Source: Acidobacteriaceae bacterium
GTDB taxonomy: Bacteria; Acidobacteriota; Terriglobia; Terriglobales; Acidobacteriaceae
Direction: 5' to 3'
NCBI GenBank assembly: GCA_003151985.1
Contig: PLZC01000459.1
Location: 1-32,145, forward strand
DNA length: 32,145 bases
Of this stretch, positions 768-31,948 are shown piece by piece. Position numbers and translations under genes: made by a program. The notes below the pieces were generated by a model. The model did no database searches, was not told the origin of the DNA, and saw nothing but the letters and a program-made list of their open reading frames with translations. Position 1 is the first letter of the stretch; every line of letters begins with the position of its first letter.

Positions 768-768
768 G

Positions 769-1096: not shown

Positions 1097-1387
1097 GGAA
1101 TTGCTGAGGCACAAGTCATCGACGGCGCTTCTTTGGCTTCGGACTCGTAACCCGCAGTATGCAAAGATTGGTTGTCGTGGGCATGGAGGGCCACTCTTTG
1201 CATTGAGCCTCTGCCCTGAGGAGTCAGCGGATTACAGCCAAAACGATTGGGTAATGAGCCCTCTTTTGTAAACTGCTGTATACAATCTGAGCCGCCCAAG
1301 ACCGCCTCGTTTACATGACCTGAAATTGGATGGCCGAGAATTTGCAAACCCGCATAGCTTGGACTGATTCGAAATGGAGCCTCAGCC

Positions 1388-1945
1388 ATGACGATTGATA
1401 CGAGCGGACTCTCAGAGGAACAAAAGGCAACCGCCGAATTCAAATCCATGTATGCCGGTATGATGCGCCAGTTGAACGCCCCCGGCTTTATCCCATTCCT
1501 TTGTGCTCACGAGGCCGCTCACGTTGTTTATTACAGGATGATGGGGGCGACTCAATTTAAGCCGCTGCCTCCAAGAATCACCTGCGAGGCGAAGACTGGG
1601 AAGCTCATCCCGCACCTTGCAGCCGTTGAGATAATTGATAAGCCCCCTTGCCACGGTGAGAGTTGGCAACACTGGCTTAGGATGGATGCACGGGCAAGCG
1701 TTGCGGGCAGTGTGGTTGCTCGTAAGCTAGGCTCTACAGATACTGGCGGAGAAGAGGGCGATAGACTCGCATTCAATGATGACTGCGCCCAACTCGTGGC
1801 TCATTTCGGAGGTATTTCAATAAACACAGACTGGCTATGGGCATGGGCACAGCGGTCAGTAGAGAAGGACTTAGAAGAATTTCCAGATCGTATGGAGTCG
1901 ATTCAAACTCTGGCTCTTGAGCTTCGGCCCCAGTTCGGCCTGTAG
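1388..1945 (+). CDS. Small protein with HEAAH (HExxH) zinc-protease-like motif; uncharacterised
   Basis: 185 aa ORF containing CAHEAAHVVYYRMMG, with a later acidic segment GGEEGDRLAFNDD reminiscent of the M41-type third ligand region. Confidence 0.55.
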   Translation: MTIDTSGLSEEQKATAEFKSMYAGMMRQLNAPGFIPFLCAHEAAHVVYYRMMGATQFKPLPPRITCEAKTGKLIPHLAAVEIIDKPPCHGESWQHWLRMDARASVAGSVVARKLGSTDTGGEEGDRLAFNDDCAQLVAHFGGISINTDWLWAWAQRSVEKDLEEFPDRMESIQTLALELRPQFGL

Positions 1946-1982
1946 ATGTATCCATCCCGCCCTCAGTCATCTCGCCAATGGT

Positions 1983-3005
1983 TCAAGGGTTCACTCGATT
2001 TGGAATCGTGACCTCTTCGATTATTTCCAAAATCTTTGGGTAGTTCGGAGTGTCATTGAAGCGAACACGATACCCATGCTGGCGATGCAGCTCTGCCGCA
2101 AGAGCCGGGGATGCGAAAGCGTAGCAGCTTTGGGTATACATGCCGGTATCTTCTGAGAACACATCGAAGCGCACTTTGTTCTCAGCCTTTCCCAAAAGAG
2201 TCTTCTTGTAAGGCCGGATGACAGCCAATTGACCGTTTACAGGAAAGCGTGTTGCAGTGCCTTTGACGAGAGACTTCGCAACGATTCCCGGTCTGAAACC
2301 TCGGTCGGTGTCTTGTCCGCCACGCTTGGCAGCAACTTTCGCGGCTCGGTCAATGGTCTTCAAGATGGGCGTTTTCTTTCCTGACGTCCATTCGAAATGA
2401 ACGGTGATTCCGACTCTCTGGTAGGCAGAAAGGAATTCCCTCCAAAGGTCTCTGTTCTCTATTGGCTCTCCAAATTGATTCCGCCAGTCGTTCTTCCGCC
2501 AGCTTGGCGCTCGAATAATGTTGTCTTTCACATATCGAGAATCTGTCACAATCTGCACACGCGAAACGCCCGGCCAACGCGAATCGCTGCGAATCCACTT
2601 CAGAGCCTGAATGCACGCGAGCAACTCCATCCTCTGGTTGCTGCTTTCCGAACAGCCGAAATCGACAATCTGCTCATCCTCTCGACCGAGATGCTCAGGA
2701 TACTGAACAATTGCAGCGCAGCCGGAGCTTCCGCCGGGATTGCGGTAGCAGGAACCGTCCGTGTAGACGTGGACTGCGTGTGGGTCAAGCGGCATCTTAT
2801 CGTTCACTATATGCCTACCCGAAGCAAGGCGGACCTCCGAAGCATCACCCAACTCGCTATCGGTGAAATGGGTGATGACGTTCACGTCTTCCGGCACAAC
2901 TGCAATCACCATCAGATGTACTTGCCGGGTGAAATCCCCCTTGAACCTCCTGGAGAAATTGATTAGGCCAATGCAGTCCTGATCGAGCAGTGGCTCACCT
3001 CGCAT
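1983..3005 (-). CDS. RNase H type I-fold protein with N- and C-terminal extensions
   Basis: VYTDGSCYRNPGGSSG, NQRMELLACIQAL, IVTDSRYVKDNI and TIDRAAKVAA match RNase HI active-site blocks. A C-terminal ~120 aa region is extra. Core may begin at Met 2795. Confidence 0.75.
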   Translation of the reverse strand: MRGEPLLDQDCIGLINFSRRFKGDFTRQVHLMVIAVVPEDVNVITHFTDSELGDASEVRLASGRHIVNDKMPLDPHAVHVYTDGSCYRNPGGSSGCAAIVQYPEHLGREDEQIVDFGCSESSNQRMELLACIQALKWIRSDSRWPGVSRVQIVTDSRYVKDNIIRAPSWRKNDWRNQFGEPIENRDLWREFLSAYQRVGITVHFEWTSGKKTPILKTIDRAAKVAAKRGGQDTDRGFRPGIVAKSLVKGTATRFPVNGQLAVIRPYKKTLLGKAENKVRFDVFSEDTGMYTQSCYAFASPALAAELHRQHGYRVRFNDTPNYPKILEIIEEVTIPNRVNP

Positions 3006-3150
3006 TCAAGGCACTTCATGAAACACTGGCCGACGTGCTTGGATTCCCCGAGGTTCTTTAATCCAAGACACCCCGAGAGCCGAAGTGCCTCCGAGCGACC
3101 CGAGCTGCAATTGATTGCAATCGGCAACAAACAGCAAAGCTAGACTCGGT

Positions 3151-3330
3151 TCAGAAGATCGTCATAAGCGCACTTGCCGTCGCTTTTGAAGCTTGCTGGT
3201 CGCTGGTCGTTACATAGCGCATCGTACTGCCAATCGACTTGTGGCCGAGTTGTTGCTTAACCAAGGCGAGATTGACGTTGGCCGATACCATGTGACTGGC
3301 GAGGGAATGCTTCAGTGCATGGGGATGCCT
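3151..3330 (-). pseudogene. Tyrosine recombinase/phage integrase C-terminal fragment
   Basis: Minus-strand frame reads RHPHALKHSLASHMVSANVNLALVKQQLGHKSIGSTMRYVTTSDQQASKATASALMTIF*, i.e. catalytic HxLKH, LGH and Y-containing blocks. No N-terminal part is present. Confidence 0.8.
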
Positions 3331-3737
3331 GAGTGATAAAGCGTTGGAGACAACGTGTCTGTTCCACCGCAGTTGCGCATGTTCATGCGAATGACGTTGC
3401 AGCCGGCGTTCCAGGCACGGGCGGCCACACCCTTTATGTATCCGGACTCCGAGGAGCCTTCGAGGCCATGCACCGGGACCACGGTCAATCGGCGAGCCAT
3501 CCCCGGGTCAGGTTGCCAATGGCAATGACACACTACCCGGCTGCCGTTGGACGGGTCCACTTCAACCGTATCTTCAGAGGCGGGAACGAGAAAGGCGGGG
3601 CGCGGGAGATAGTTCCCGACGATGGTTTGCAAATGGCCGTTGGTGAGGCCGCGGCGCAAATGCAACCAACCACAGCCGGAAGCGGGCGGTGCCCAACGAT
3701 ATGCCAAGAATGCCATAAATACCGGCGACCCTCGCAC
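3312..3737 (-). pseudogene. YheT-like alpha/beta hydrolase, N-terminal half only
   Basis: GHLQTIVGNYLPRP, VPVHGLEGSSESGYIKGVAARAWNAGCNVIRMNMRNCGGTDTLSPTLYHSG match the N-terminal half of the YheT/UPF0017 family. It then stops where the integrase sequence begins. Confidence 0.75.
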
Positions 3738-3904
3738 TCTGCTGACCCGTTCCAGGTTGTCTCAAAAGCGTTAACGGGAGTTCAGCGGCAAGAGGCGGCG
3801 GAGCACCGTTTACCAGGAGCCGATCTGTGCTTTGCTTTGCTGGTCGGGGCGACACAGCGGTTGAGGGCAGCCAACAAGACATACTGGCCGAACGAGCGCT
3901 GTGT

Positions 3905-6664
3905 TTAGTAGGTCGCTAGAATCAAGTACTTCTCTTTGCCCACGTTTGGAACTCGCACCCACTCTTTCGTTGGGTCAAAATCCTTCCACGGCCTTCCATT
4001 GACTGTCACGTGTTGCATCAACTTCCCTTGCGGATGGCGAATCCGCAGCAGTGCTGTTGTCCCAGGCTGACGGACTTCGAGTTGCAGAGATGCTTCGATC
4101 CTGCCGGTACTCGCAGCACTGCGAATTTCGAATGAGATGTTTCCGAACCAGGTAGGCGCGCTTTTCACCTCAATATGTTTGCCGTCTTCCAACCATGCCC
4201 GAGGGGTCGATTGCGCTAGAAACAACGTGTGGTCATCGGCTTCCCGGACGAGCATATTGCGGTACAGCTCAAACCATGCTCCATCTGTGCTAGGCGGCCC
4301 GAAATATTGCCCCCAGCGCCAACGATGTTCTACAGGCTCATACACGCTGTGACTGAAGCCGCCGGCCATCATGCTATAGAATGCGTTGATAGATGCTTTC
4401 ACATCGTCGCGGAGCAGATAGGCTGTTGCCTGTTGGTTGTAGACGGGCTCATTTGCCAATCCCCACCCGTGCAGAAATAGGTTGTCCTCCTGGTCATTCA
4501 GTAGAGAGTCGGCAAGTTCGTCTTGCGCAGGCAAAGCTCCAAGGCGAAGCAGATGGGCAGCTCCGGTATCTACATCGGATGGGTACCACAGCTTGAAGTT
4601 ACGCCCTGGCTCCAAAGCATTTGAGGGCATATAGGGAACCCAGGTGTGATCGCGTAACTGGACGAGGGGGGACTGAACGCTGGCCAAGCTTATGCCATGG
4701 CCAATTGCCGTACGGTATTGTTGCGCAACACGCAGGCATTCCGCGGCACGGTGATTGCCGTCTCGCTCGAGGGCCTGGCCCATCAACTCAACTCCCGCGT
4801 AGAGATAAGCCTGGTTGAACGCCCAATATCCATCGCCTGTCAAATCATTGAGCGGACCGGCGACGAGGCCTCGCGCCGGGCCAGGAGCTGAAGACGCACT
4901 TTGTATCTGTGCAATGGACCAATCGAGCGCCTTGAGCGTCTCCGGGAGCAAGGCTTCAAAGCTCTCCCGGTCGTTCGACAAGAGATAATCTTCCGCCACG
5001 GCGTATAACATTCCGGGACTGTACGTTAGCCAATGCGCCCACCCATTTACACTGCCATTAAACTCCTGGTTGTTGCGATAAATAGCATGAAGTTCTTCAG
5101 TCGCAATCTTGTTATAGCCTCGTAGTCCGTAGAGCATGTAGTCAACATATACGGCTTGATTGATTGGCCAGGGTGTTCCAGTTTGACTATAGGCAAAGTT
5201 GGAATAGGGCAGATCGATTTGGCCATCGCTATGTTTGCGCGGCAGCATCAGGGCATGCCATAGGTTAGCGCGAAAGAGGTCATTGACCGCTTGTTCAGGA
5301 ACTTCGAACTGCGCGCCCTGCTCCAAATACGAAGCCCAGAATTCCAGAGTGCGCGCCTTGGTATTCTCATAGTCCAAATTGGCCAGCGTATTACGTTGAT
5401 CGGCAGCGACAGTTGGGGAAGGTAACGAAACGAGAAATTCTTTGGCGCCGTTGGCGGGGAGCGAAACTGAAATCGTGACATCCACTCGCTTTGCCTTCTG
5501 ACCTTCCTCCTGTACACCAGCCCACGCCACTTTGGCGCCTGCGGGGCTGATTGCAACCAAAACGTTGCGATGTGCTTGCTCCTCGATCAGAAGCTTCCCA
5601 CCCACATACTCTTCTGTGATGCCTGGATCGTCCTGGGATGGCAGGTTGCGCTCATGCACGATGGTCACGGGAATGACGCGCGCTTGTCCTGACATATCTG
5701 TCATTCGCACACGCTGTAGCAACACCATGTTCACATCGCCTTGCCGCTGCCGCGGGGGACCGTCCAACGGATAGGCGAACTGCTCCACTTCGTAGCGCAC
5801 ATTGTCACGCTCAAAGACGGTGGTTATGACCGGCAACCCGTTATGGAGTCTTTGACTCTTCCAGTAGGGACGAATCCCTTCAGCCAGATTCGCGAACTCG
5901 AACCAAAACCGGAACTGATCCGGATTCCCATAGTCACTCCAGACTCCGGCGCCACGATCGATTCCAAACTTAGGGAGAGTCGAGTCCCAACTAAGGCAGA
6001 CGATGTGGCCCGGGCCTACCTGCGCTGGATGGGCATAATCCGGATTTCCCATGTCCGCCCACTTCATCTTGAATGCGGCATAACTTGCCTCAGGTGCATG
6101 TTTGACTTGATCGAGGATGCGCAATCCAGCGTACTGCGCAAGCTGGCGCTGTGTATCGGAAAACGAGACCGGGGCATCGCCAGTACTCACGTAAAGATCG
6201 AGGGAAGGAATCCAAAAGGTCCTGGCTTGAAGCAACTGATCGAGGGTTAATGAGAATCCGCTCGTACCCTCGGGGTTCAGCTCGACCGTAATCTTGCGCT
6301 CATCTGCGCGCCATGCAGGATCTTGCGTAAGACGGTGCACCGTGTCTGCATCGCTGTGCGCAATCAGGTCGGACCAGATGACGTGCATCTGTTGGACCGG
6401 GTGGATTTCCACCTTTGGATATCTAAGCGTATATGTCTGGGTCTCGACCTGACCGGCGCCGGCTGTGCCCAGCCATTCGCCCTGCTTGTCGACCGATACG
6501 TCGTAGGATGGAATCAGCTTTACAAAGAATGGCGCGCGCTGAACCGAGGTATTGCCGAGGGAGACTTGGACTTTGAGCTCGTCGATCGATTGGCACAGCA
6601 AAACAGCCGGGGCGAGACCTAAGAGCACAAATAGCGCCAATGCGGACCGGTACATTGTTCGCAT
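3905..6664 (-). CDS. Large secreted six-hairpin (alpha/alpha)6 glycosidase-like protein
   Basis: Signal peptide MRTMYRSALALFVLLGLAPAVLLCQ (likely start 6664; ORF runs to 6751). Alpha/alpha-toroid-like central region (PWPINQAVYVDYMLYGLRGY...NGWAHWLTYSPGMLYAVAEDYLL) and a C-terminal beta domain typical of large bacterial glycosidases. Confidence 0.6.
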   Translation of the reverse strand: MRTMYRSALALFVLLGLAPAVLLCQSIDELKVQVSLGNTSVQRAPFFVKLIPSYDVSVDKQGEWLGTAGAGQVETQTYTLRYPKVEIHPVQQMHVIWSDLIAHSDADTVHRLTQDPAWRADERKITVELNPEGTSGFSLTLDQLLQARTFWIPSLDLYVSTGDAPVSFSDTQRQLAQYAGLRILDQVKHAPEASYAAFKMKWADMGNPDYAHPAQVGPGHIVCLSWDSTLPKFGIDRGAGVWSDYGNPDQFRFWFEFANLAEGIRPYWKSQRLHNGLPVITTVFERDNVRYEVEQFAYPLDGPPRQRQGDVNMVLLQRVRMTDMSGQARVIPVTIVHERNLPSQDDPGITEEYVGGKLLIEEQAHRNVLVAISPAGAKVAWAGVQEEGQKAKRVDVTISVSLPANGAKEFLVSLPSPTVAADQRNTLANLDYENTKARTLEFWASYLEQGAQFEVPEQAVNDLFRANLWHALMLPRKHSDGQIDLPYSNFAYSQTGTPWPINQAVYVDYMLYGLRGYNKIATEELHAIYRNNQEFNGSVNGWAHWLTYSPGMLYAVAEDYLLSNDRESFEALLPETLKALDWSIAQIQSASSAPGPARGLVAGPLNDLTGDGYWAFNQAYLYAGVELMGQALERDGNHRAAECLRVAQQYRTAIGHGISLASVQSPLVQLRDHTWVPYMPSNALEPGRNFKLWYPSDVDTGAAHLLRLGALPAQDELADSLLNDQEDNLFLHGWGLANEPVYNQQATAYLLRDDVKASINAFYSMMAGGFSHSVYEPVEHRWRWGQYFGPPSTDGAWFELYRNMLVREADDHTLFLAQSTPRAWLEDGKHIEVKSAPTWFGNISFEIRSAASTGRIEASLQLEVRQPGTTALLRIRHPQGKLMQHVTVNGRPWKDFDPTKEWVRVPNVGKEKYLILATY

Positions 6665-6990
6665 TCCGCACGGGAATAACATCTTTTCCGGTCCACGGCG
6701 TACCACTTGTGTCCATGATTCTGTTAAGAGCAATTTCACATTCGCATCCATATTTTATTGTTGAGAGAGTTATGCGGCATCGAGTCATGCAAAGACAAGT
6801 ATCGCCGCTTTTAATCCTATTAGGAGGACAACATCGCCCTTTTGTTCAACTGGAGGGAATACGCTGGACGGATGCAGGTAAGGTTGGGTAGCCAAGTGCC
6901 TATAATGAAACCTCGCGTTCCCTCGGAGCGCAGTGTTTTCCGAGCGTGGTTGCTGCTGAGTCTAAATGATCTCTGAGAGGATTTCCTACC

Positions 6991-7920
6991 TTGGTTGAAA
7001 TCGAGTCATCTGCTCTGCTCGTCTCAATCCTTCCCGAAGTCGGAGGCAAAGTGGGCCAGATCCGCGATAAGGTCTCCGGCAGTGACATCCTGATTCCGCC
7101 GCAGAGACCTTATCGCGCCATCCCGATCGATGGCGACTGGCTAAAGCACGACACGAGCGGCATGGACGATTGTTTTCCCAACGTCTCTGCTGGCGAGTAT
7201 CCTGAAGCACCTTGGACGGCAACACATCTTCCCGATCTGGGCGAATGGACACATAGAGTTTGGAATGTTACGAAGGCTGGCGCCAGTGAAATTGTGATCG
7301 AGACAACAGGCAGCGCCCTGCCATATTACGCAGTCAAGGCGATACGTTTCGTGGATGAGCAAACGTTGGAGTTTTCTTATCGGGTCGAAAATCGGGGCCA
7401 GTTTTCCATCCGGTATCTATGGTCGGCGCATCCGTTAATTTCAGTGCCGGATACCTATGATCTTCAGATGCCTCCCGGAGAGTTGAGGTTTCGTCTCTTC
7501 CCTACGGATGGAACCGTGCGGAGATGGCCGATATTCAAGGGTGCATCCCTCACAAACGAGTGGATACCCCAAGGCTCGGATTTGAAAGTATTCGTGACCG
7601 GACTGGAGGAGGGATGGTGTGCATTGCGGCTGCCTGCGCACACGCTCCGCTTCATTTTTGATTTGCACACCCTACCCGCAGTGGGTATCTGGTTTAACAA
7701 CTACGGGTTTCCGGCAGAAAGTGACCGGCCGTTTCGATGCATTGCAGTGGAGCCGTGCACCTCGCCATCGGATCTGCTGGATGAGCTTGATCCAGCGGCG
7801 TATCCGAGAATCGCACCCGGCGCGGTGTCGCAATGGTCGTTGCGTTTGAATATTGCGCAGCACGGCTCGCCGAGGCTGAGGAGCACGAGTGCCAGAATAC
7901 ATCCGCTCCTTGATGCGTAG
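6991..7920 (+). CDS. Galactose mutarotase/aldose 1-epimerase-like protein
   Basis: 309 aa ORF (TTG start) with LPEVGGKVGQIRDKVSGSDIL, LWSAHPLISV, WFNNYGFP and VEPCTSPSDLLDE, characteristic of mutarotase-like superfamily proteins. Confidence 0.7.
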   Translation: MVEIESSALLVSILPEVGGKVGQIRDKVSGSDILIPPQRPYRAIPIDGDWLKHDTSGMDDCFPNVSAGEYPEAPWTATHLPDLGEWTHRVWNVTKAGASEIVIETTGSALPYYAVKAIRFVDEQTLEFSYRVENRGQFSIRYLWSAHPLISVPDTYDLQMPPGELRFRLFPTDGTVRRWPIFKGASLTNEWIPQGSDLKVFVTGLEEGWCALRLPAHTLRFIFDLHTLPAVGIWFNNYGFPAESDRPFRCIAVEPCTSPSDLLDELDPAAYPRIAPGAVSQWSLRLNIAQHGSPRLRSTSARIHPLLDA

Positions 7921-7978
7921 ATCCGGCGAGTCAACATGCCGTCTGCCTTCCCTATCTACTATTGCACGAGGGTAGACT

Positions 7979-8932
7979 TCAGCTAGAACGTCGCTGCGCG
8001 AACCATGCCAGGATCTCATTTTCGTACACGGTAACCGCGAGCGTGCTTACCAGGACGATTCCCCCACCAATCATCACGAACGGCGTGAGGATCTCTTTGA
8101 GGGCTAGCACGGCAAGCAGCCCCATAAAGAATGGCAGTGCGTAACTGCTCAGATTCGCCTGGGTAACGTCAAGCCGCTTCAGGATAGAAAAGAACAACAG
8201 CATCGACGCACCGTAGACGATAAGAGCCAGTTCTAGAATCCCCCACAGCGCACCGCTATTCATGCTCGATATCTCAGCCCAGTGGAGCGGCTCAACCCAA
8301 ATAAACAACGGGATACTGAAGACGCTTCCAACCGCGGATGTATAAAGCAGGACCTCGAGTTCGGTATATTGTCTGTCAATCAGCAGCTTGCAATATGTGT
8401 TGTAGAAAGCCGATGCGGCGCAGGCAACAAGAAAGAGCAGGTCTCCGACCAGGTATCTCCTGACTCCGAAGTGCGAGCTGCGGAGATCTGGAATTGACGT
8501 CATCAGAACGCCCGCGAGCGCGAGCAGGAAGCCAACCACGCGAACCGACGTCAGCTTTTCGCCCAACATGATAGACGCGGCAATCGCAACCAATACGGGA
8601 ATACTCAACGTGATAACCGCGGCGTTTGCGGCGAGGGTTCGCTGGGCACCAAGAGTATATGCGAATTGCAGAAGGAAGAAGCCAAAGAACCCAGCGATCA
8701 GGAAATGCTTGGCGTCATGCCACTGCCATTGGGGTGGTCTACCCTTTCTTTTACTTTCGTACAGCAGCACCGGAAGGAAGAGGAGAGTGCTCAGGATCAT
8801 GGGCACAAATGCGATTGCCACGGGTCCCAGGTGATCGCCAATAAGTTTGATCACAATCACCTGCGTGGCCCACATAAAGTTGACCAACATCAGACAAAGC
8901 CAATCAAAATATTTGTTCGCCTTAAGCGTCAA
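7979..8932 (-). CDS. EamA/DMT-superfamily transporter
   Basis: ~10 hydrophobic segments in 317 aa; MWATQVIVIKLIG...; duplicated EamA-like organisation. Confidence 0.8.
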   Translation of the reverse strand: MTLKANKYFDWLCLMLVNFMWATQVIVIKLIGDHLGPVAIAFVPMILSTLLFLPVLLYESKRKGRPPQWQWHDAKHFLIAGFFGFFLLQFAYTLGAQRTLAANAAVITLSIPVLVAIAASIMLGEKLTSVRVVGFLLALAGVLMTSIPDLRSSHFGVRRYLVGDLLFLVACAASAFYNTYCKLLIDRQYTELEVLLYTSAVGSVFSIPLFIWVEPLHWAEISSMNSGALWGILELALIVYGASMLLFFSILKRLDVTQANLSSYALPFFMGLLAVLALKEILTPFVMIGGGIVLVSTLAVTVYENEILAWFAQRRSS

Positions 8933-8972
8933 ACTTATTCCCTTCCCGGCGCAGACTCGGCTTCACTCCCAG

Positions 8973-10397
8973 TTATTTCCCGAGCAGCTTATGCAGCCAA
9001 TCAACGGGCTCCATGGCCCAGGACTCCATCCCGAATGGCTCAAGACGAATTTCAGTTGGCGCAGAGCCGGGCAAAAGCTTCACGTCTGGCAATGGCCGAA
9101 GGCGCGCATTTTCATCCTCAGAGGGGGATTGTGCATCAAGCAGTCTACGATGCGCAACCAAGGCGTCTGCCAGGCCATGTGCATCGAGCCTGACGGTGAC
9201 CGGCGTACTGGAGAAGTTCCAAAAGAGAAGATTGTAGGTTTCGTACGCCTTATCGTAGGCGAGGAAAGCATGTACTGACTCGTCGGTCGAGTCAGCCTGA
9301 AGACGGTCACCGGTCACCCTCGCTAACAGCTCGAAGGTGAAGTACGCGGGCCGCATGACGTTCTGATAGTCGAACAGCCCCGAGTATTGCGGCATCCGGT
9401 TCCACCAACTCGCCATAAACGAGGCTCCCCCAGGCGAGAAGAACGGCGCAAAACGATCACGGTCAACGTGGTAATCGCGGATATGGTAAAAGCAGGAATA
9501 CGTCAGGCCGGATGCTTTCATGCGCCAAGCTGTCTCCGCAACATAAGCTGGCTGAATGCGGAGATCCGTGGGCGGCACGCTCAATGCCATATTCCACTCA
9601 TCGAGTATGGTTTCAGGCTGCAACGATGGATGTTGCGCAAGCAAGGCTTTCACTCCCTCGATGGTGCCCTGGATTGCCTTTGGGTCGCTGTCGTAGATGT
9701 GCCATGACACGAAATTTAGCGGCACTTTTTCTTGGTCGCAGAACGCAATCAGTGCGGGAAGGATAGGCGACTTCCAGCCGGCCATGGCGGGACCGCCAAC
9801 GTGTGCGGTCGAGTCGCCCCGAAGGACGGCGGCAACCGTATGCCGATAGTAGCGCACATAGTTTTCCGGAGTGAATCGATAAGGCGAGCCTCCCGACTCT
9901 CCGATATCTCCTTCGTTCCCGACCTCCCAATAAAATCCAGCCAAGCCCTTTTCCCTGTAATGACTCACAACATGAGCGATGAGCTGCTCCCACTTGCCGT
10001 AGTCGTTTGGATCCACTACGTCCTGGTCGGTCTTTGGAAACAACACCTTTGGCTTAATTGTCACGCACATCAGCGGCAGCGCGCCGGCCCGGACAATTTC
10101 ATCGACAGATTGATCGAGCGTGTCAAAGTGATAGTGTCCATCTTCCGGGAGCAGATCGAAGTACTCCTGGACAAACAACCGGATTAGACGCGGATGGAGG
10201 GCACGAATCTCGGCAATACGGTTATCCCAAATCGGGTCCGGCGAGAGGCCACCTTGCCCAAGGGAAATGTGATCCATTTCCATGGGGCCAATATTCTTTG
10301 AAAAATTGAGCGTCAGAGTCGCGTTACGGGTTTGTGCGGCAGCCCCGGATATCATTCCGGCCGCAAGTACGAATGTCAGCAACCGTGTAACTTTCAT
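8973..10397 (-). CDS. GH39-like secreted glycoside hydrolase
   Basis: Signal peptide MKVTRLLTFVLAAGMISGAAAQ. GFYWEVGNEGD (acid/base NE) and ETILDEWNMAL (nucleophile E) in a clan GH-A-type context. Confidence 0.7.
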   Translation of the reverse strand: MKVTRLLTFVLAAGMISGAAAQTRNATLTLNFSKNIGPMEMDHISLGQGGLSPDPIWDNRIAEIRALHPRLIRLFVQEYFDLLPEDGHYHFDTLDQSVDEIVRAGALPLMCVTIKPKVLFPKTDQDVVDPNDYGKWEQLIAHVVSHYREKGLAGFYWEVGNEGDIGESGGSPYRFTPENYVRYYRHTVAAVLRGDSTAHVGGPAMAGWKSPILPALIAFCDQEKVPLNFVSWHIYDSDPKAIQGTIEGVKALLAQHPSLQPETILDEWNMALSVPPTDLRIQPAYVAETAWRMKASGLTYSCFYHIRDYHVDRDRFAPFFSPGGASFMASWWNRMPQYSGLFDYQNVMRPAYFTFELLARVTGDRLQADSTDESVHAFLAYDKAYETYNLLFWNFSSTPVTVRLDAHGLADALVAHRRLLDAQSPSEDENARLRPLPDVKLLPGSAPTEIRLEPFGMESWAMEPVDWLHKLLGK

Positions 10398-10487
10398 CTA
10401 CCTTCTCCATTGAAGCTAAATGAGCCGTCCAAACGCAGGCTCCCAGATACTAACCGCACTTCTCGAATGGCCTGAGAAGCAGTGCGA

Positions 10488-11258
10488 CTAAGCACGCTTT
10501 CTTGCCGAGCTTGCGGTCCAGCCGCCATCCACCGGAAGCGTAACCCCGGTGACGTAGGAGGATTCGTCTGAAGCAAGGAACAGTGCGGCCCATGCGACTT
10601 CCTCAGGAGAGCCGACACGGCCAAGCGTGGTCTGATCGCACTGCCAATGATAATGAGGGTCGTCGGGCCCTTCCGCAATCCTTGTTTGGATCGGACCGGG
10701 GCACAGCGAGTTAATGCGGATATTATCAAGACCGTAGTCATAGCAGACGCTCATCGTATAGCCCAGGAGCGCCGCCTTCGTCGCAGTGTAAGCGACCGAA
10801 GTCATCATGCCTTCCATCGCCTGAATGGAGGCGACATTCACGATGGAGCCGGATCTTTGGGCGATCATGTAGGGCAAGACGGCCTTGGTAAAGTAGTGTG
10901 TACCCATGAGCGCGACATCAATGCACTTGCGCCACTCTTCGTCAGTCGATTCCAAGACGGCATGGAAGTCGGGAGCAAGATAAGCCGCGTCGTTACAAAG
11001 AATGTCGATGCGTCCCGTCTGAGCAGCAGCAAGCTCGACGGCGCGTTGGATGTCCTCGCGATTTGATACGTCGCCCCTGCAAAATGCGGCCTTTCCACCC
11101 TTCTCACCAATGCTGGCCGCGACGCTCTGGCCCGTTTCTTCTTCTATGTCGACCACCAGAACCCAAGCTCCTTCATCGGCAAATCGTTCACAGATCGCTC
11201 TCCCGATTCCGTTGGCCCCGCCCGTAACAATTGCAACCTTGTCTTTTAGCCGGTTCAT
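10488..11258 (-). CDS. Short-chain dehydrogenase/reductase (SDR)
   Basis: VAIVTGGANGIGRAI, VAYTATKAALLGYT, RINSLCPGPI, YVTGVTLPVDGGW are classical SDR motifs. Confidence 0.92.
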   Translation of the reverse strand: MNRLKDKVAIVTGGANGIGRAICERFADEGAWVLVVDIEEETGQSVAASIGEKGGKAAFCRGDVSNREDIQRAVELAAAQTGRIDILCNDAAYLAPDFHAVLESTDEEWRKCIDVALMGTHYFTKAVLPYMIAQRSGSIVNVASIQAMEGMMTSVAYTATKAALLGYTMSVCYDYGLDNIRINSLCPGPIQTRIAEGPDDPHYHWQCDQTTLGRVGSPEEVAWAALFLASDESSYVTGVTLPVDGGWTASSARKRA

Positions 11259-12406
11259 GGTCTCTCCACTCGGTACTTCTCGATTGTTGCCTCATCCACC
11301 TCAACGCCCAGCCCTGGCCCCTGTGGAACCCGCAGAAAGCCATCTTCAAGCCGGATCGCACTATGGCATAAGTCGCGACTCAAGGGGCCGCTCGTAACGT
11401 TGAATTCCTGAAAAACGGATCTGCGCATGAAGGCGTTCAGATGCAGCGAGGCCGCGGTAAGCAAATCTGAAGTCCACGCATGCGGAATGCAGAGCCGGTT
11501 ATGAAGCTCCGCCAGGTGCACAATCTTGCGCGCCGCCGTGAAGCCCCCACAACGAGATAGATCCGGCTGGATTACATCGACTTGACCCTGTTCAATCAGG
11601 GTGCGAAAGCCCCACTCCGTGGCCTCCTGCTCACCGCAGGCAATGAGCGTGTCAACGGCGCCTGAAAGCTGCGCGTATCCGTCATAATCTTCAGGCGACA
11701 ACGGCTCCTCAATCAGAAAAGGCCGAAAAGGCTCAAGCCGCCGCACCATCTGAATCGCTTCCTTGGCCGTGCGATGGATGTACCATCCGGTATCGATCAG
11801 CAATTCTACGCGGTTTCCCAAGGCCTTCCGCGCCGACGCCACCAGCGCGACATCCTGCTCACGATCTTCGCCGAAAACTCCCCACCCAAATTTAACGGCT
11901 GTGAAGCCTTGCTCGACATACCCGCGACTCGCCTCAGCCATCCCCTCTGGAGTGGAGCGAAACAATGTGCTTGCATAAGCAAGCACCTTATCGCGATAGC
12001 CTGCGCCAAGCAATTTGTAGATTGGCTGCCTGACACTCTTCCCAACGATGTCCCAGAGCGCTATATCAATCCCAGAGATAACCTGCATGGCTGCCCCCCG
12101 TCTGCCGTAGTAGACAGAGGCCATGTACATCTTGTGCCAGAGGCGCTCAACCTCGAATGGATCTTCTCCGATAAGAACCGATCTGAGGCCCAGGAATCCT
12201 TGAGCCGAACCTTCAGACGGAGCGTCGACAATCGCTTGCGCTACATGCGGCTGGGTTTCGAGATCGGCATACCCTGTAATTCCAGCATCGGTTTCGACTT
12301 TGACAACGCCCAGATATTTAATTCCGGAAGCCTCTTCACCGCCGGCTGTCGACTGATATGCCCCTGGCGATTCAAGTACGATTACGTTGACGCCGGTAAT
12401 CTTCAC
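11255..12406 (-). CDS. Mandelate racemase/muconate lactonizing enzyme (enolase superfamily), probable sugar-acid dehydratase
   Basis: IKYLGVVKVETDAGITGYAD, DIALWDIVGK, FTAVKFGWG, LLIDTGW, LIEEPLSPED, ACGEQ and DVIQPDLSRCGG match the MR/MLE metal-binding pattern. GTG start. Confidence 0.88.
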   Translation of the reverse strand: MKITGVNVIVLESPGAYQSTAGGEEASGIKYLGVVKVETDAGITGYADLETQPHVAQAIVDAPSEGSAQGFLGLRSVLIGEDPFEVERLWHKMYMASVYYGRRGAAMQVISGIDIALWDIVGKSVRQPIYKLLGAGYRDKVLAYASTLFRSTPEGMAEASRGYVEQGFTAVKFGWGVFGEDREQDVALVASARKALGNRVELLIDTGWYIHRTAKEAIQMVRRLEPFRPFLIEEPLSPEDYDGYAQLSGAVDTLIACGEQEATEWGFRTLIEQGQVDVIQPDLSRCGGFTAARKIVHLAELHNRLCIPHAWTSDLLTAASLHLNAFMRRSVFQEFNVTSGPLSRDLCHSAIRLEDGFLRVPQGPGLGVEVDEATIEKYRVERP

Positions 12407-13251
12407 GCATTCTCCAATCCGAGACAGGTCAGCGTGGGGCTGTAAATGAGCCGCTCAATCTCTTCGCCGTCGAGCCGGGGAAGATTGTTGCCCTCAGCAA
12501 AATGATTGATATTGCGCAACCCATCAATCTGCGCTTCAGGGGTGGTGAAGGGATAGTCGGAACCGAACAAAAGCTTGTCGAGCACGCCGTACTCTTTGGC
12601 CATAATCAACGCATTGTAGAACTGCCAAGGACGATAGTGCAGCGCCGAGATATCCGAGTAGAGGTGGGGATGCTTACGAATGAGAACGAGAGTGTCGGCG
12701 ATCCACGGATGTCCGAGATGGGCGATGATCATCTTCAACTCGGGAAACTCAACCACTACGTCTTCCAGCAGAATCGGCAGCGCATACTTCAACGGGCCTG
12801 TTCTGACGAATGTAGTTCCCTGATGAATCATGATGGGAAGCCGATGTGCCTGACAGAACTGGTAGACCGTCATCATCCTGGGATCGGTCGGATGAATATT
12901 CTGATAGATCGGGCCGAGCTTGACACCGCGGAGTTTGAGCCGCACGATTTCATCAAGCGTTTCGTCAATTGGATCGACCGCGGGGTCAATTGCGCCGAAG
13001 CCAATGACCTTTTCCGGATGGCTTGCGGCATACGTAGCAATGTACTCGTTCGGAACTCGCAGTCCCGAATGATGGGCTCGCAGCCCGAATACGATCACCT
13101 TATCGACACCTGACATAGCTTGCAGGTGTTTTTCCGGCGGAATGTCAAGGTCCAGTTTATGCCCACGACTTCTCGCGTTAGCCTCGTTTACAAATTCGTC
13201 GGAGAGATGGCCGGGATAGGCCCACACATGAGAGTGGCAATCAACCAGCAT
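12403..13251 (-). CDS. Amidohydrolase family 2 (TIM-barrel) protein, candidate lactonase
   Basis: MLVDCHSHVWAYPG, GVKLGPIYQNIHP, MIIAHLGHPW, LLFGSDYPFT typical of amidohydrolase_2. Confidence 0.85.
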   Translation of the reverse strand: MLVDCHSHVWAYPGHLSDEFVNEANARSRGHKLDLDIPPEKHLQAMSGVDKVIVFGLRAHHSGLRVPNEYIATYAASHPEKVIGFGAIDPAVDPIDETLDEIVRLKLRGVKLGPIYQNIHPTDPRMMTVYQFCQAHRLPIMIHQGTTFVRTGPLKYALPILLEDVVVEFPELKMIIAHLGHPWIADTLVLIRKHPHLYSDISALHYRPWQFYNALIMAKEYGVLDKLLFGSDYPFTTPEAQIDGLRNINHFAEGNNLPRLDGEEIERLIYSPTLTCLGLENA

Positions 13252-25600: not shown

Positions 25601-25914
25601 TGCAGGTGCCACATCCGAACGCGACTCTTTGGTTCAATCCTGGTGCCTTGGCTGCGCCTCTCCCCTATACATATGGCAGTTCGGGGATGGGTATTTTCGA
25701 GGGGCCGGCTAACTACAACCTGGACACCGCGCTGCTCAAAAACTTTCGCTTCCGCGAGGGGACTTACCTGCAGTTCCGTTTTGAGGCGTTCAACATGCCG
25801 AATTTTGTCAACCTGGGGAGCCCAGACACCACCATCAACGACGGGACGACCGGCGAGATCTTCAGCGCAGGTGCTCCGCGCGAACTGCAATTCGGGTTGA
25901 AGTTGATCTTCTAA
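22672..25914 (+). CDS. TonB-dependent receptor, Oar/Cna-B-like
   Basis: 1080 aa; signal peptide; LGVVADQSGAVIPGAKVTAKNLDTGFTKEVLTNASGDFEILSLPIGQYSVTVS; DLPLDGRNVIQLVGLAPG; C-terminal QFGLKLIF. Confidence 0.93.
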   Translation: MNKLIVLIATLFAVTSIPQAQIANEGIVLGVVADQSGAVIPGAKVTAKNLDTGFTKEVLTNASGDFEILSLPIGQYSVTVSMNGFKGWKLEKMVLEIGQRSRLSPVLQLGSVSEQVTVAGLAQQIQTESAAAETVIQQKQVVDLPLDGRNVIQLVGLAPGMQYTGQAGGQFGAERGSTVQGSGVASGQTQFQLDGSNANGSMDEGAIAIPSVDTIAEFNVQTSNFSAENGRFPLQVLVATKAGANQYHGSAWEFARNSAFSAKNYFTPPNSSNPRLIQNQFGVAGGGRIIRDKTFFFGSWELLRVRQEQFFDNRVPTPAMLTGDFSGRNAIYDPTTSQQFSYNGQSNVIPPDRIDSAAKFFFPYWLASSTGRYQAIAPVIDDTSSGTARIDDELRTNQHLYGRWVRYGSPTTFYNDTPAESELNNTIQQSYTLNYAYTISPTILFSINGGFQESHNSFVSPGVGVTNLDTAAGIAGFTNPAQQAFAGIPGVSATGLTGFGLPWGVNGRLWSHSWNGTTSLNLVRGKHLIDFGLQGDVRAVYGNHASFASRGNFGFNGQYTALGVGTGDGFADYLLGLVSSASRNFPLAPFGVQRAPYGAAFVEDTYKVTRHLTLNLGLRYDYWYEKQLLYGNGATFDPQIGKVVAGVDASGDVNLVAQAAAPYFAAATAGEWIPANQVGVPAGLFKANGYFSPRVGISWNPFKDTVIRGAYGIFTSSFQGNISASSIVGPPYWSYETPNFSYGTMQKWETAFPAGLNDFGPSSVASPAWDVRSQKLHEWNMSVQQSLPFHSALTLSYVGNRLFDGISGDQDYDAVPAGNYPNLQAALPYPDLTNITLFQNLGQSWYNGLQAKWERRMTDGLTFTGSYAFSKLMLNNMAAGGPYNSVQPLTPAGYTRGRSPSDVRNLLTVNSVYELPTGRGRKYLSTINQAADLILGGWEISGIFSFASGTPLSFDVPGATLGNGYDTRPNLISGVSLQVPHPNATLWFNPGALAAPLPYTYGSSGMGIFEGPANYNLDTALLKNFRFREGTYLQFRFEAFNMPNFVNLGSPDTTINDGTTGEIFSAGAPRELQFGLKLIF

Positions 25915-26255
25915 GAGGTAAGACAGGAAGCGGCATATAGACCGTTCTTCCCCTGAACGACGACGTCTGTAATCGTGAGCGTGGAGGAGCCCTTCTCCCA
26001 GTTAAAGCGCACGAGGTCAGTTGGTGCGCCAACGCGGAGTACACCGCGGGCGCCGACGAAGCGGCTGGGGTTGGCGGTTGCCATCAGAATGGCATCGCCA
26101 ATGCTGATGCCGGTTTTGGCAGCGACGAATGCGATGCAGACGTTGAGCGTGGCTGTTGCGCCGGCGAGGTAGACGCTTTCAGCGACGTTGAGCATGCGGG
26201 ATTCAGCCACACTAACAGTAAAATCGTTGAGCGAAGGTTTTTCCAGATTCGACAT
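25911..26255 (-). pseudogene. N-acetylglucosamine-6-phosphate deacetylase (NagA)-like C-terminal fragment
   Basis: VYLAGATATLNVCIAFVAAKTGISIGDAILMATANPSRFVGARGVLRVGAPTDLVRFNW matches the NagA/amidohydrolase C-terminus. No metal-binding N-terminal region is present. Confidence 0.7.
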
Positions 26256-26267
26256 GTCGATCCTTAA

Positions 26268-27533
26268 TTAGGTAGGTTCCTGTGAAGTTTCATTGCGATT
26301 CTGAATGCTGTGGGCGAGATTTTCGTCCGGGGTGGAATCCAGATTGATGCTATGCAACAAAGCGTTGGCGGTTGGCCTGGTTCTGCGCGTGAAGAGCCCG
26401 ACCACAACGTAGAGAACAAATGTAGTGACGACGGGGCCACCGACACCGACGGCAGTGGCCATGTCGCCGGCAAAGTCAATTATCTGCCCAGGGAAGACGA
26501 ATTTGATAGCAATAAAGGTAAGTACGCCACCGCCCCATACGGTGAGCTCGGCAGCAGGACCGCAGCGGCGAAACGGAAGCAGCATACCGAGCAGCATCGG
26601 AATTGCGGTAGGCCCGGAAAGCGCCGCAAACCAGAGAATGATCAGGCCGAGTACGCCGGCGAAGCGATCGGCATAGTAGGCGATGATCATGCTGAGAACA
26701 AGGAGCACAAACGTGCAAATGCGACCGGCGAGCAGTTGTGCGATGCCGCTCATGCGGAGGCGGTCGCGGCGCAGCGCGGGGAGAATGTCACGCACAACCA
26801 CTGCGGAGATGGCGTTTGCATCGGAGGAAGTCATGGCCATGGTGGAAGCGAAGAGCCCGCCCAGCACTAGGCCGAGCACGCCGCGCGGCAGCATCATCTG
26901 GACCATCAGCGCATAGCTTTTGGATGGGTCGACAAGATTCGGCAAAAGCAGCGGCGCAGCCCACACCGGAAAAAACAGCACCAGCGGCCATACGAGATAG
27001 AGTGAGGCCGAGAGCAGAGCGGCTTTCTTCGCATCGTTTCCGTTGGGCGCGGCGATGAAGCGTTGCGCGAGACCCCATGAACCACCGTTGTAAGAGAGTG
27101 TGTTAAGGACCAGGAAAACCGCGGCAAATAATGGCGTGTAGGGCGCTACAAAGAGATGCGAGTGCGATGGCGGGAGACGGCGCCAAATTATCCATAGGGC
27201 CGAGATGCCGCCAAGATGCGAGAGCACCGCGAAGAGCATGATGAAGCCGGCGGTGACCTGAATTACGAATTGGCTGAAGTTTGTTAGTGCATTTGCCCAT
27301 AGGCCGCCGGCGACAGCATAAATGAGAGAAACGCTGCCGGTGAGCAACACGCCATAGGCAAGGGGCACATTGGCGAGGACGTTGAGCAGAATCGCGGTGG
27401 CAGTCCACTTGGCGCCGATATCGAATATCTTGAACAGAGCGCCGCTCCAGGCCACACTAGAGGTAATATCCGCTTTGACAGCGGAAGCACGAAACCCGCC
27501 CGCGAAGGCAACTCCAACCCCAACTGAAAGCAC
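26268..27533 (-). CDS. Sodium:solute symporter family transporter, 5' end apparently lost/replaced
   Basis: GLWANALTNFSQFVIQVTAGFIMLF, TMAMTSSDANAISAVVVRDILP and many hydrophobic segments fit SSS. The first transmembrane helices expected before this are absent. Confidence 0.72.
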   Translation of the reverse strand: MLSVGVGVAFAGGFRASAVKADITSSVAWSGALFKIFDIGAKWTATAILLNVLANVPLAYGVLLTGSVSLIYAVAGGLWANALTNFSQFVIQVTAGFIMLFAVLSHLGGISALWIIWRRLPPSHSHLFVAPYTPLFAAVFLVLNTLSYNGGSWGLAQRFIAAPNGNDAKKAALLSASLYLVWPLVLFFPVWAAPLLLPNLVDPSKSYALMVQMMLPRGVLGLVLGGLFASTMAMTSSDANAISAVVVRDILPALRRDRLRMSGIAQLLAGRICTFVLLVLSMIIAYYADRFAGVLGLIILWFAALSGPTAIPMLLGMLLPFRRCGPAAELTVWGGGVLTFIAIKFVFPGQIIDFAGDMATAVGVGGPVVTTFVLYVVVGLFTRRTRPTANALLHSINLDSTPDENLAHSIQNRNETSQEPT

Positions 27534-27679
27534 ACAAGCAATACAAGCGGGATTCTCTTTTGCATGAATTCCCTCACGGGCTGTTCGTGGAAATCTTCCC
27601 GCCCGTCAATGAGCAATCGAATGGGCATTCTCCTTTTCTCCAGTTGCAACGATTGCAGTTTCGGGCCAAAAAGATGCAT

Positions 27680-28366
27680 CTACCGTTCCCCTCCGCTCGG
27701 TTGAGTATTGTCCTTTCTATCGCCATTCCTCGAATTGGATTTGTTCCGATCGCCACGGATTTCACGATATACAATTCGAGGAAGGTCCGCGGGATCGACG
27801 ATTGGAATAACGACAAACCCGGCTTGTCGCGCACTCGCGATACCGGCATCCGAGTCTTCGAAGACGAGGCCCGTCTTGACATCGAGCCGACTGCCGAGCA
27901 GGAGATATGGGTCAGGCGCTGGTTTATGGCGCTCCACATCATCTCCGAACACCACAGCCTCGAAGCACTTGAAAACTCCGGCAGCGCGAAGAACCGGTTC
28001 CACATCGAACCTTGCGGAGCTAGTCACGAGCCCGAGCCGGTAGCCCTTGAGAGAATGCAACAGCTCAATTGTTGCTTCATGGATGGGAGGTACGCTGATG
28101 CACATATCTCGCATGATTTCGTTGCGAAGTGCGACCTGTTTTTCCACTCCCAAAAGCAGAAGAGGGTCTTCGACAAGCTGGCCCAGTGTGGCGATCATTT
28201 GCGCCTCTTGGATGCCACGGCCAATTTCGCAGTACCGATCCCAGGTAAACGGAATGCCCCGCGGCTCCAATATCTCTGCCCATGCTCTCCAGTGGAGTCG
28301 TTCCGTATCCGCAATTACGCCATCGTAATCGAATATGAGTGTGCCGATGCCGCTCTGATGGGTCAA
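27680..28366 (-). CDS. HAD-superfamily hydrolase, beta-phosphoglucomutase-like
   Basis: LIFDYDGVIADTERLH, LGLVTSSAR, KPAPDPYLL, VFEDSDAGIASARQAGF are HAD motifs I-IV. Confidence 0.88.
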   Translation of the reverse strand: MTHQSGIGTLIFDYDGVIADTERLHWRAWAEILEPRGIPFTWDRYCEIGRGIQEAQMIATLGQLVEDPLLLLGVEKQVALRNEIMRDMCISVPPIHEATIELLHSLKGYRLGLVTSSARFDVEPVLRAAGVFKCFEAVVFGDDVERHKPAPDPYLLLGSRLDVKTGLVFEDSDAGIASARQAGFVVIPIVDPADLPRIVYREIRGDRNKSNSRNGDRKDNTQPSGGER

Positions 28367-28769
28367 TTGGATGTCCCTTCAATTCCCGAAGAACGGAAGA
28401 CGAAAGGCGCTTGTTCTTTCGGGATTTATTCCGGAACTCTCGCGTAACATGCCTGTCCTCATCTGTCTTCAAGCAAGATCGACAGGAACGCAAGAAGTGC
28501 TGACGGGTGGCTCTCCTACCTCAAAGCGAATATTCCGAATATAAACCAGACTGCCAAAGGATCCGTAGTAATGTGCAAAACTACACAGACAAATCAAAAG
28601 AGCTATGGCATTCTGCATGCCATTGCGGCGAAGATTCATTGTTTGCTACGTTGAGGAGTGCTTACAGGGATACTGCACCTCCACATTGGGAATGCAGAGA
28701 ACGCCGGCAAGTCTGTTGGGCCCTTCAAACAGCGTCGCCGTAGGCCGATATCCGGTAGGAGGTTATGTA

Positions 28770-28887
28770 ATGAAGCGATTAGTGCTCCTGTTGTGCGGGT
28801 TCCTCCTGTCGGCCACAGGCGCATTTTGTGGCGTAACAGGCAGCGTCGTAGGGACGGTGACCGATACCACAGGCGGTGTCATTGGGA
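28770..28887 (+). pseudogene. TonB-dependent receptor N-terminal stub (signal peptide + start of CarboxypepD_reg)
   Basis: MKRLVLLLCGFLLSATGAFCGVTGSVVGTVTDTTGGVIG; then reading frame switches to unrelated permease sequence. Confidence 0.75.
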
Positions 28888-29394
28888 GGGATTCTTATTC
28901 TCGCGGCGCTGGGGAGTGGTATCACCGGAGGCCTCGGAGCAGCACGGCTGTTATTTGGAATGGGGCGCGATGGTGTACTCCCGCGCAGTTTCTTCGCACA
29001 TCTGAGCCCTAAGTCGAACACACCCACTTACAACATTCTTTTGATAGGCGCCGTAGCTTACTTTGGGGCGATCGGTCTCAACTACATTGGCAGTGCCTAT
29101 GAACACGCCGGCGAACTTCTTAACTTCGGTGCATTCCTCGCCTTCATGGGTGTGAATCTTTCGGTCTTTTGGCACTTTACAATCCTGAACCGCAAGGAGA
29201 GACGGCCAAGGATATTCATTGACGCAGTTCTGCCCCTGTTGGGCTTTGCGTTCTGTGGATTGATTTGGTTGAATCTCAACATAATCGCCAAGATTGCAGG
29301 TGGAATCTGGTTCGCCATAGGGCTGAGTTATCTGTGTATAACTACACGCGGCTTCACACGTGGCCCCAAAACGATCGACTTTACCGAATCCTGA
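28888..29394 (+). pseudogene. APC-family amino-acid permease C-terminal fragment
   Basis: ILILAALGSGITGGLGAARLLFGMGRDGVLPRSFFAHLSPKSNTPTYNILLIGAVAYF...LNFGAFLAFMGVNLSVFWHF is the C-terminal third of an APC permease (ORF listed from 28876). Confidence 0.78.
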
Positions 29395-29476: not shown

Positions 29477-31948
29477 ATGGTAGATGGCGGATATATGGGT
29501 CTTGGGTGCCTTGAAAGAGGCGCAATGCTCAAATTGATCTTTAACAGCCACGCAAGCACGGTGCGCCGCCTCCGAACTGTATCCAGCATTTCTTTGCTGA
29601 TCATTGTCCTTCCGTGTTGGTTCAGTGGTGTCGCGCAATCCAATAGCTCTAGTCCACCCTACCTCGATGCGACGCAACCGATTGAAGTGCGGGTCAACGA
29701 CTTGATGAGCCGCATGACTCTCAAGGAGAAAATTGGACAGCTCAACCTTCCGTGTGCCTATGTTGATGAACTCGGGAAGACAAGGACAGAGAAGATGGCC
29801 GCGAGCAGAAAATTCGCCGCGGGTACTTACACAGACGAGATTGGCCCTGGCTCCGGGTTCTTTACCTTGGGAGACGAGCTGAGGTTGCAAGACCTCTCTC
29901 AGCAGGTTGAATTCTTCAACGAACTCCAGAAGATTGCAGTGACCCAGACGCGGCTCAAGATCCCTCTTCTTGAGGATGAAGAGGGAACGCATGGCGCAAT
30001 GTTTCCCAATGCTACCGTGTTTCCTGAGGGATTGTCGATTGGGAGCACATTCGACTTAGCTCTGGTGAAGGAGATTTACGCTGCGGCTGCACAGGAGGCC
30101 AGAGCCTCCGGAATTCATATTCTTTCGACCTTGGTGTTGGAGGTTGATCGCGACCCGCGCATGGGGCGGAACATGGAGGCCTACACGGAGGATCCCTATC
30201 TGTATTCGCGGATAGCGGAAAACATTGTGTGGGGAGCCCAAGGCTCGAACGTTAACGCTCCCGACAAGGTTGCCGCCTTGATGACAGACTTCCCAACCCA
30301 GAGCGAGCCGGCCAGCGGCATGGAACGAGGCGCAATTGAAATATCGGAGCGCGGCATACGCGAGAACTTCCTGCCTCCCTGGAAGGCGGCTTTCGATGCC
30401 GGCGCCTTGGGGGTTATGGCCGGGTATCCAGAAATTGACGACGTACCGGAGCATTCATCGGAAAAGTGGAATACAGAAGTCCTTCGCCAGGAACTGGGTT
30501 TCAAGGGAATTGTGCAGAGTGAAGGCGGAGGCTTCGGGACCTTGATCTATGAAGATATTGTGCCCACCCAAAAAGAGGCCGGAGCACTTGCCTTGCGGGC
30601 TGGCGTTGACATGAATATCACTTATGAATCAGCTTACATGGGTCCCCTGGTTGAGAACGTTTTAGAAGGAAAAGTGCCCGAAGCACTTGTCGATCGCGCT
30701 CTGCGCCGGGTACTCGATCTGAAATTCCGCCTGGGACTGTTTGAGCACCCCTATGTCGAGGTGAAGCAGGCCGAGCAGGTTGTGCATTCGAGGGAACATC
30801 AGCAACTTGCCCTGCAGACAGCGCGTGAAAGCATTGTTCTGTTGAAGAACCAGGGCAACATATTGCCGCTGAAGAAGGATCTCAAGTCCATTGCGGTAAT
30901 TGGTCCGAATGCAGATGATGGCTGGCGCCAATTGGGTGACTATTCGCCGAAGCTTGTGCCACAAAAGGTGATTACCGTTCTCGACGGTATCAAGCAAAAG
31001 GTATCACCGGGGACACGGGTTGAATATGTTCGCGGATGCGAAGTTATCGGCGGAAAAGAGGATATTGCGAAGGCAGTTGAAGCTGCACGGAATGCAGATG
31101 TGGCAGTCTTGGTCGTGGGCGAAAATCCAGGCAATGCGGGCAGTGGAAGTATTCCGGAGACCGATGGCGAAGGCCATGATGTGGCCACACTTGATCTGAC
31201 AGGTGTGCAGGAAGAACTTGTCAAAGCCGTTCAAGCAACAAGAACTCCGGTTGTGCTGATATTAATCAATGGCAGGCCGCTCTCGGTCAGTTGGGAAGCA
31301 ACTCACCTCCCGGCGATTATCGAAGCATGGGAGCCGGGCGAAAATGGCGGAGAGGCAGTTGCCGATGTGCTCTTTGGCGACTTTAATCCAACCGGGCGCT
31401 TGGCCATAACCATTCCACGCAGCGTCGGGCAGCTACCTTCCTACTACAACTACAAACCTTCGAAGGAGTACTGGATCAACGACGGAAATCACCACGGAGG
31501 ATATGCCGACATGCCGGGCACGCCTCTTTATCCATTCGGGTATGGTTTGAGCTACACGGACTTCAAGTACGGCAATCTGCGGATCACTCCGCCACAGATC
31601 TACCAGGGCGGAAATGCGGTGGTAAGCATCGACGTGACAAATGTGGGGAATCGAACCGGCGTGGAGGTTCCACAATTGTACGTGCATGAGCGCTATGCCC
31701 CTGTGTCGCTTCCGATCAAGCAGCTTAGGGGCTTTGACAGAGTTTCACTCACTCCCGGTGAAACAAAGACAGTCACAATGAAACTCACGCCGGAAGCCCT
31801 GATGCTCCTCGATCGCGACATGCATTGGACAGTTGTGCCGGGAAGCTTCGACTTGATGATTGGCAAATCTTCAGGAGATATAGTGTTGAGAGGCTTCCTC
31901 GAAGTGAAATCGGCAGACGCACTCACTGGTGAAGGTTTTGGCAGGTAA
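29477..31948 (+). CDS. Glycoside hydrolase family 3 (beta-glucosidase/xylosidase-like), secreted
   Basis: LMSRMTLKEKIGQL, EDEEGTHGAMFPNATVFPEGLSIGSTFD, GVMAGYPEIDDVPEHSS, ESIVLLKNQGNILPLKKDLKSIAVIGPNA, C-terminal Fn3-like FGYGLSYTDFKYGNL. Candidate starts 29477 (after AAAGGAGG) or 29525; the ORF opens at 29360. Confidence 0.93.
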   Translation: MVDGGYMGLGCLERGAMLKLIFNSHASTVRRLRTVSSISLLIIVLPCWFSGVAQSNSSSPPYLDATQPIEVRVNDLMSRMTLKEKIGQLNLPCAYVDELGKTRTEKMAASRKFAAGTYTDEIGPGSGFFTLGDELRLQDLSQQVEFFNELQKIAVTQTRLKIPLLEDEEGTHGAMFPNATVFPEGLSIGSTFDLALVKEIYAAAAQEARASGIHILSTLVLEVDRDPRMGRNMEAYTEDPYLYSRIAENIVWGAQGSNVNAPDKVAALMTDFPTQSEPASGMERGAIEISERGIRENFLPPWKAAFDAGALGVMAGYPEIDDVPEHSSEKWNTEVLRQELGFKGIVQSEGGGFGTLIYEDIVPTQKEAGALALRAGVDMNITYESAYMGPLVENVLEGKVPEALVDRALRRVLDLKFRLGLFEHPYVEVKQAEQVVHSREHQQLALQTARESIVLLKNQGNILPLKKDLKSIAVIGPNADDGWRQLGDYSPKLVPQKVITVLDGIKQKVSPGTRVEYVRGCEVIGGKEDIAKAVEAARNADVAVLVVGENPGNAGSGSIPETDGEGHDVATLDLTGVQEELVKAVQATRTPVVLILINGRPLSVSWEATHLPAIIEAWEPGENGGEAVADVLFGDFNPTGRLAITIPRSVGQLPSYYNYKPSKEYWINDGNHHGGYADMPGTPLYPFGYGLSYTDFKYGNLRITPPQIYQGGNAVVSIDVTNVGNRTGVEVPQLYVHERYAPVSLPIKQLRGFDRVSLTPGETKTVTMKLTPEALMLLDRDMHWTVVPGSFDLMIGKSSGDIVLRGFLEVKSADALTGEGFGR

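Follow-up and report, generated by a model that had tools for sequence, protein, structure and literature searches.

The window, i.e., the whole stretch of DNA analysed here, is one complete contig of 32,145 nt (G000:C118) with a GC content of 54%. It belongs to a draft bin of 6.03 Mb that comprises 468 contigs and is 73% complete with 3% contamination. Truncated genes are found in two stretches that sit close to both ends of the contig. The sequence-only reading described them as scars of deletions, in which the start of one gene is joined to the end of another, and named repeated assembly artefacts as the alternative.

Truncated genes at the right end

The ORF at positions 26268–27533 (minus strand) has 421 residues and represents a sodium:solute symporter (SSS), to which ten family relatives match only from its residue 26/27. 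The SSS remnant itself occupies positions 26271–27454 (minus strand); it has 394 codons with no stop codon and lacks about 125 N-terminal residues. It is joined to a gene start at positions 27455–27561 (minus strand) with an ATG at 27561 and AGGGA upstream, which is probably out of frame with the SSS. A similarity search found no relative of these 107 bases, which include a plausible ribosome-binding site. The closest named relative of the window SSS is from an Acidobacteria MAG. A relative closer than the ten above, with 82% protein and 79% DNA identity, was found by a scan of genome contigs in a MAG from a Barre Woods sample (JABDHA010000196.1, here L205); the study matching L205 used sorted, MDA-amplified cell pools plus bulk DNA (PMC7065516). 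In L205 the SSS N-terminus is intact and a GH20 gene lies upstream (GH20-SSS). At position 27454 the DNA identity to L205 drops from about 90% to background over a few bases. The replacement of the SSS 5' end that had been proposed from the sequence is borne out both by this end of homology and by the matches of the relatives. DNA comparison of the genome of L205 (G337) to the rightmost 19 kb of the window shows essentially the SSS alone in common, so that genome offers no counterpart for the other breakpoints. Among 80 genomes of the genus the SSS is present in one, the window's own, and the other 79 are without it.

Just downstream of the SSS is an ORF at positions 25911–26255 (minus strand) that matches PF01979 in a profile search only from profile position 271 on, which is the end of the family. 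The nagA C-terminal remnant (25914–26221, minus strand) has about 90–100 residues in a frame that is open up to the stop, and about 330 N-terminal residues are absent. Its alignment partners are the terminal parts of complete nagA genes in L033, L036–L039, L041 and L042; together with the profile match, this confirms the NagA-like C-terminus noted earlier. The beginning of the ORF (26222–26255, minus strand) comes 12 bases after the SSS gene. It reads MSNLEKPSLND, has a ribosome-binding site and forms an in-frame fusion with the nagA tail. These approximately 11–20 residues show no significant similarity in a search and are too short for identification; they lie at the place of nagB, and nagB is thus placed as the partner by position only.

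The SSS surroundings were read in ten family relatives. In seven of these a full-length nagA is downstream of the SSS, in the order SSS-nagB-nagA in L033, L037, L038, L041 and L042, and directly adjacent without nagB in L036 and L039. The remaining three have the SSS and then nagB, which in the relatives belongs to the glucosamine-6-phosphate isomerase family. From the sizes in the relatives, the sequence lost at the nagA junction is about 1 kb if it comprises the nagA part alone and up to 1.7 kb if nagB is included. The bin has a second nagA and nagB (G000:C153).

A third junction is on the plus strand. Positions 28770–28885 represent the start of a TonB-dependent receptor (TBDR), with a signal peptide and the beginning of a carboxypeptidase-regulatory-like domain. 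Its 38 residues have TBDR heads as best matches (score 64 vs. a shuffled maximum of 54). It is joined at about 28890 to an out-of-frame APC amino-acid permease C-terminal remnant (28889–29394, plus strand) of about 168 codons with no stop codon, whose DNA homology to relatives starts at 28891/28892. Full APC proteins of 458 residues are found in two genomes of the same genus, G015 (G015:C467, 76% aa identity) and G296 (73%). These and the TBDR-head matches substantiate the TBDR stub and APC tail of the sequence-only reading. In G015 the APC gene is preceded by aminotransferase-like and Gfo/Idh/MocA genes and followed by an MR/MLE enolase-like gene. The enolase-like gene of this APC cluster (L043, positions 906–4169) shares 43% identity with the central MR/MLE gene of the window. 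No relative with the same TBDR/APC neighbour pair was found.

Intact genes are also present. An HAD/beta-phosphoglucomutase-like hydrolase (27680–28366, minus strand), which covers its full profile, sits between the junctions, and a homolog is found near the APC gene in G296. The GH3 gene at 29524–31948, beside the 26–29 kb stretch, is intact as well.

Since the intact relatives keep the gene order on the SSS-nagA side, the SSS and nagA junctions are best read as deletions in one operon. A deletion is also plausible at the TBDR/APC junction. To this extent the proposed start-to-end deletion scars are supported; the yheT/integrase junction described below is not of this type.

Truncated genes at the left end

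Positions 3–767 (plus strand) match the C-terminal part of a PLD/SNF2 helicase of 1113 aa; the gene keeps its natural C-terminus and is cut by the contig start alone. A relative of this tail is found in only one other of 200 genomes of the class (G163), where it lies in a defence island (L133, G163:C8, positions 454–12726) with an Eco57I-like methylase, the PLD/SNF2 helicase, GmrSD and a Gabija-like GajA/GajB pair. It is followed in the window by a UvrD-like helicase C-terminal remnant (851–1096, plus strand) from which about 610 N-terminal residues are absent. Both had been taken for ends of UvrD. The headless tail at 851–1096 is real, and the segment at 3–767 is the helicase end, not UvrD. 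That two pieces of UvrD were joined by an internal deletion is not supported, as no significant match was obtained for the upstream piece. Within the left accessory segment, positions 1388–1945 hold an ORF of 185 residues that has no Pfam match and adjoins an RNase H-like gene.

At about position 3321 the head of yheT is joined to the tail of an integrase. The tyrosine integrase C-terminal remnant (3151–3326, minus strand) matches PF00589 at profile positions 128–171 of 172. The yheT 5' fragment (3321–3704, minus strand) is a partial second copy; an intact yheT with 86% DNA identity is present at G000:C195, and nearly all matching genomes of the genus have a single copy. Differences between the two copies are distributed 8/5/25 over the three codon positions, which implies that both diverged as working genes and that the fragment was cut recently. 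The head-to-tail junction previously noted here is therefore real, but a deletion does not fit it because the piece of yheT represents an additional copy that has diverged. This junction differs in kind from those of the right flank. The headless uvrD and the integrase tail with the extra yheT fragment were probably left behind by an integrated element.

For this junction taken by itself, an element may have integrated in or near yheT and left a displaced 5' fragment beside its integrase, a reading that is compatible with the best explanation for the window. The integrase tail does border on a surplus 5' fragment of yheT, with a complete yheT also in the bin, and the adjoining genes look accessory, given the rarity of the helicase tail and its occurrence beside Gabija-like and restriction genes in G163. 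However, the integrase is present as a tail only, cut at the HALKH motif, and not as a complete gene next to a site of attachment. A direct-repeat core was not identified, and the intact yheT has no directly adjoining integrase, although two recombinase-like ORFs are 6–8 kb from it. Such an integration is considered unlikely.

An origin of the yheT fragment in a different species is possible, as is mis-binning of the contig. In the latter case the window would belong to a sister species, and the yheT broken here would be that species' own. This explanation addresses where the contig comes from and is compatible with the others. It is in line with the synonymous-biased divergence of the second yheT and with the 3% contamination of the bin. 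The base composition also makes mis-binning possible: sampled contigs of the bin have GC contents of about 54–61%, and the window GC and GC3 (near 0.6) are under those of the typical contig. Contigs C144 and C7 of the same bin are equally low in both values, however, and a different origin would leave the cuts themselves unexplained. Mis-binning is rated as rather improbable.

Sequences at the junctions

Two 20-mers at the right-flank junctions resemble each other, GATTTTACTGTTAGTGTGGC at the nagA junction (26205–26225, minus strand) and GATATTACCTCTAGTGTGGC at the SSS junction (27450–27470, minus strand). They are near-identical and in a common reading frame (D-F/I-T-x-S-V-A). The 20-mer common to the two junctions, GATWTTACYKYTAGTGTGGC, has a score that 2.3% of random coding pairs also attain, where the null includes some overlapping pairs and ten junction pairs were compared. 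Its significance is marginal and suggestive at most. No motif is common to all junctions. No clear microhomology is visible at 27454 (compared with L205) or at the yheT junction (compared with C195), with one parent compared in each case. A transposase-free local hotspot that fuses gene starts to ends around the sugar locus, perhaps at the GATWTTACYKYTAGTGTGGC motif, is very improbable. A deletion-prone region on both flanks, as had been proposed, is not supported; nor is a special deletion mechanism. In agreement with the sequence-only reading, no transposase was recognised among the scanned ORFs.

Age and frequency of the truncations

There are no stop codons in 2307 remnant sites of SSS, APC, nagA and yheT, which caps the neutral divergence accumulated after the cuts at about 6%. 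As none of the four remnants tested contains a stop codon, the cuts are recent. The fused forms do not appear to be conserved units: no DNA match spans the junctions in 35 genomes of the genus, and the SSS is missing from the other 79 of the 80 genomes. Full-length homologs across the cut exist in relatives for SSS, nagA, APC, yheT and UvrD.

No comparable gapless truncation was found elsewhere in about 14 RND pumps, about 60 TBDRs and sampled homologous genes; these samples are small and biased in that contigs were partly picked for the RND and TBDR families. Damage in the approximately 14 RND pump genes consists of N gaps, frameshifts or contig-end truncation only. The roughly 60 TBDRs are mostly intact, and the partial copies examined, eight of about thirteen, run into contig ends, N gaps or frameshifts. 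A further 315 kb of other contigs has few partial matches, which are either naturally complete genes or at N gaps. A genome-wide wave of deletions is not seen in the RND, TBDR and contig samples, which show no clean cuts.

N gaps occur in the assembly itself at a frequency of about one per 10 kb. Gap sizes are unreliable because roughly 70–140 bp are apparently absent from RND genes on C19, C146 and C358 at gaps written as 2–16 N. Gaps of 2-base N are numerous in contigs L069, L100–L103, L111–L112, L119, L132, L136–L137 and L140 of the same genome.

These properties bear on a possible artefact in which low-coverage, strain-variable accessory DNA was misjoined, by chimeric molecules or short-overlap merging, and gene parts were skipped. 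The frequent gaps and the bases missing at some of them would fit such an origin, as would the perfect frames of the remnants, the closeness of the affected stretches to both contig ends, and the 14% divergence of the yheT fragment, which is mostly at third positions as if from a working gene of another species. The window junctions, however, are without N, and the same assembly writes N at its scaffold gaps. The SSS and nagA cuts retain the ancestral order and orientation within one operon. A k-mer misjoin needs at least 20 common bases; on the comparable side, no such stretch is seen at 27454 when set against L205, nor at the yheT junction when set against C195. In addition, the missing halves are not on other contigs: the SSS N-terminus, GH20 and the APC N-terminus have only distant paralogs elsewhere in the bin, which argues against a simple joining of two loci that had been assembled separately, although in a bin that is 73% complete this search is not decisive and yheT is an exception. 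The absent repeats and missing halves lower the chance of a graph misjoin, and chimeric molecules could still be the source. An assembly origin is on the whole a doubtful explanation that nevertheless carries some weight.

Interpretation

The preferred explanation, to which we assign a probability of roughly 0.55, is that recent, independent and ordinary deletions produced pseudogenised remnants of an N-acetylglucosamine (GlcNAc) operon and of a neighbouring TBDR/APC locus. An ancestral uptake and catabolism operon of the order SSS-nagB-nagA would have been beside the TBDR/APC locus, and several such deletions would have left the remnants at 25.9–29.4 kb. Illegitimate recombination of the ordinary kind, acting in the living genome, would have made the cuts. 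They may have been tolerated because the locus is accessory, with the SSS in no other genome of the genus and with nagA and nagB elsewhere in the bin. As counterpoints to this explanation, a single 32-kb contig with five cuts, when sampled genes elsewhere have none, is much for chance, and remnants in perfect frame are also expected from an assembly chimera.

The remnants resemble deletional pseudogenes (Pseudofinder, PMC9336565; review, PMC3899985) in that truncated accessory genes have intact homologs in relatives and head-to-tail fusions are a product of deletions within operons. They differ from the usual ones in that several very young cuts are clustered, the central catabolic genes are whole and such cuts are absent from the sampled genome. 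The left end is similar to remnants of integrative elements with partial duplication of a target gene, where an integrase end is found beside the 5' part of a gene whose intact copy lies elsewhere, but the window has no complete integrase and no attachment repeats were found. The blunt junctions and gene fragments in perfect frame are also features of misassembled or chimeric draft contigs (PMC5771137); unlike these, the window cuts preserve order, contain no N and show no common repeats at comparable junctions.

If the junctions are artefactual, they call for caution over gene fusions that are called from draft bins. If they are real, a short ORF in a draft of this kind can be a fused remnant and not a small gene, and accessory loci for polysaccharide use in soil Acidobacteria would erode quickly.
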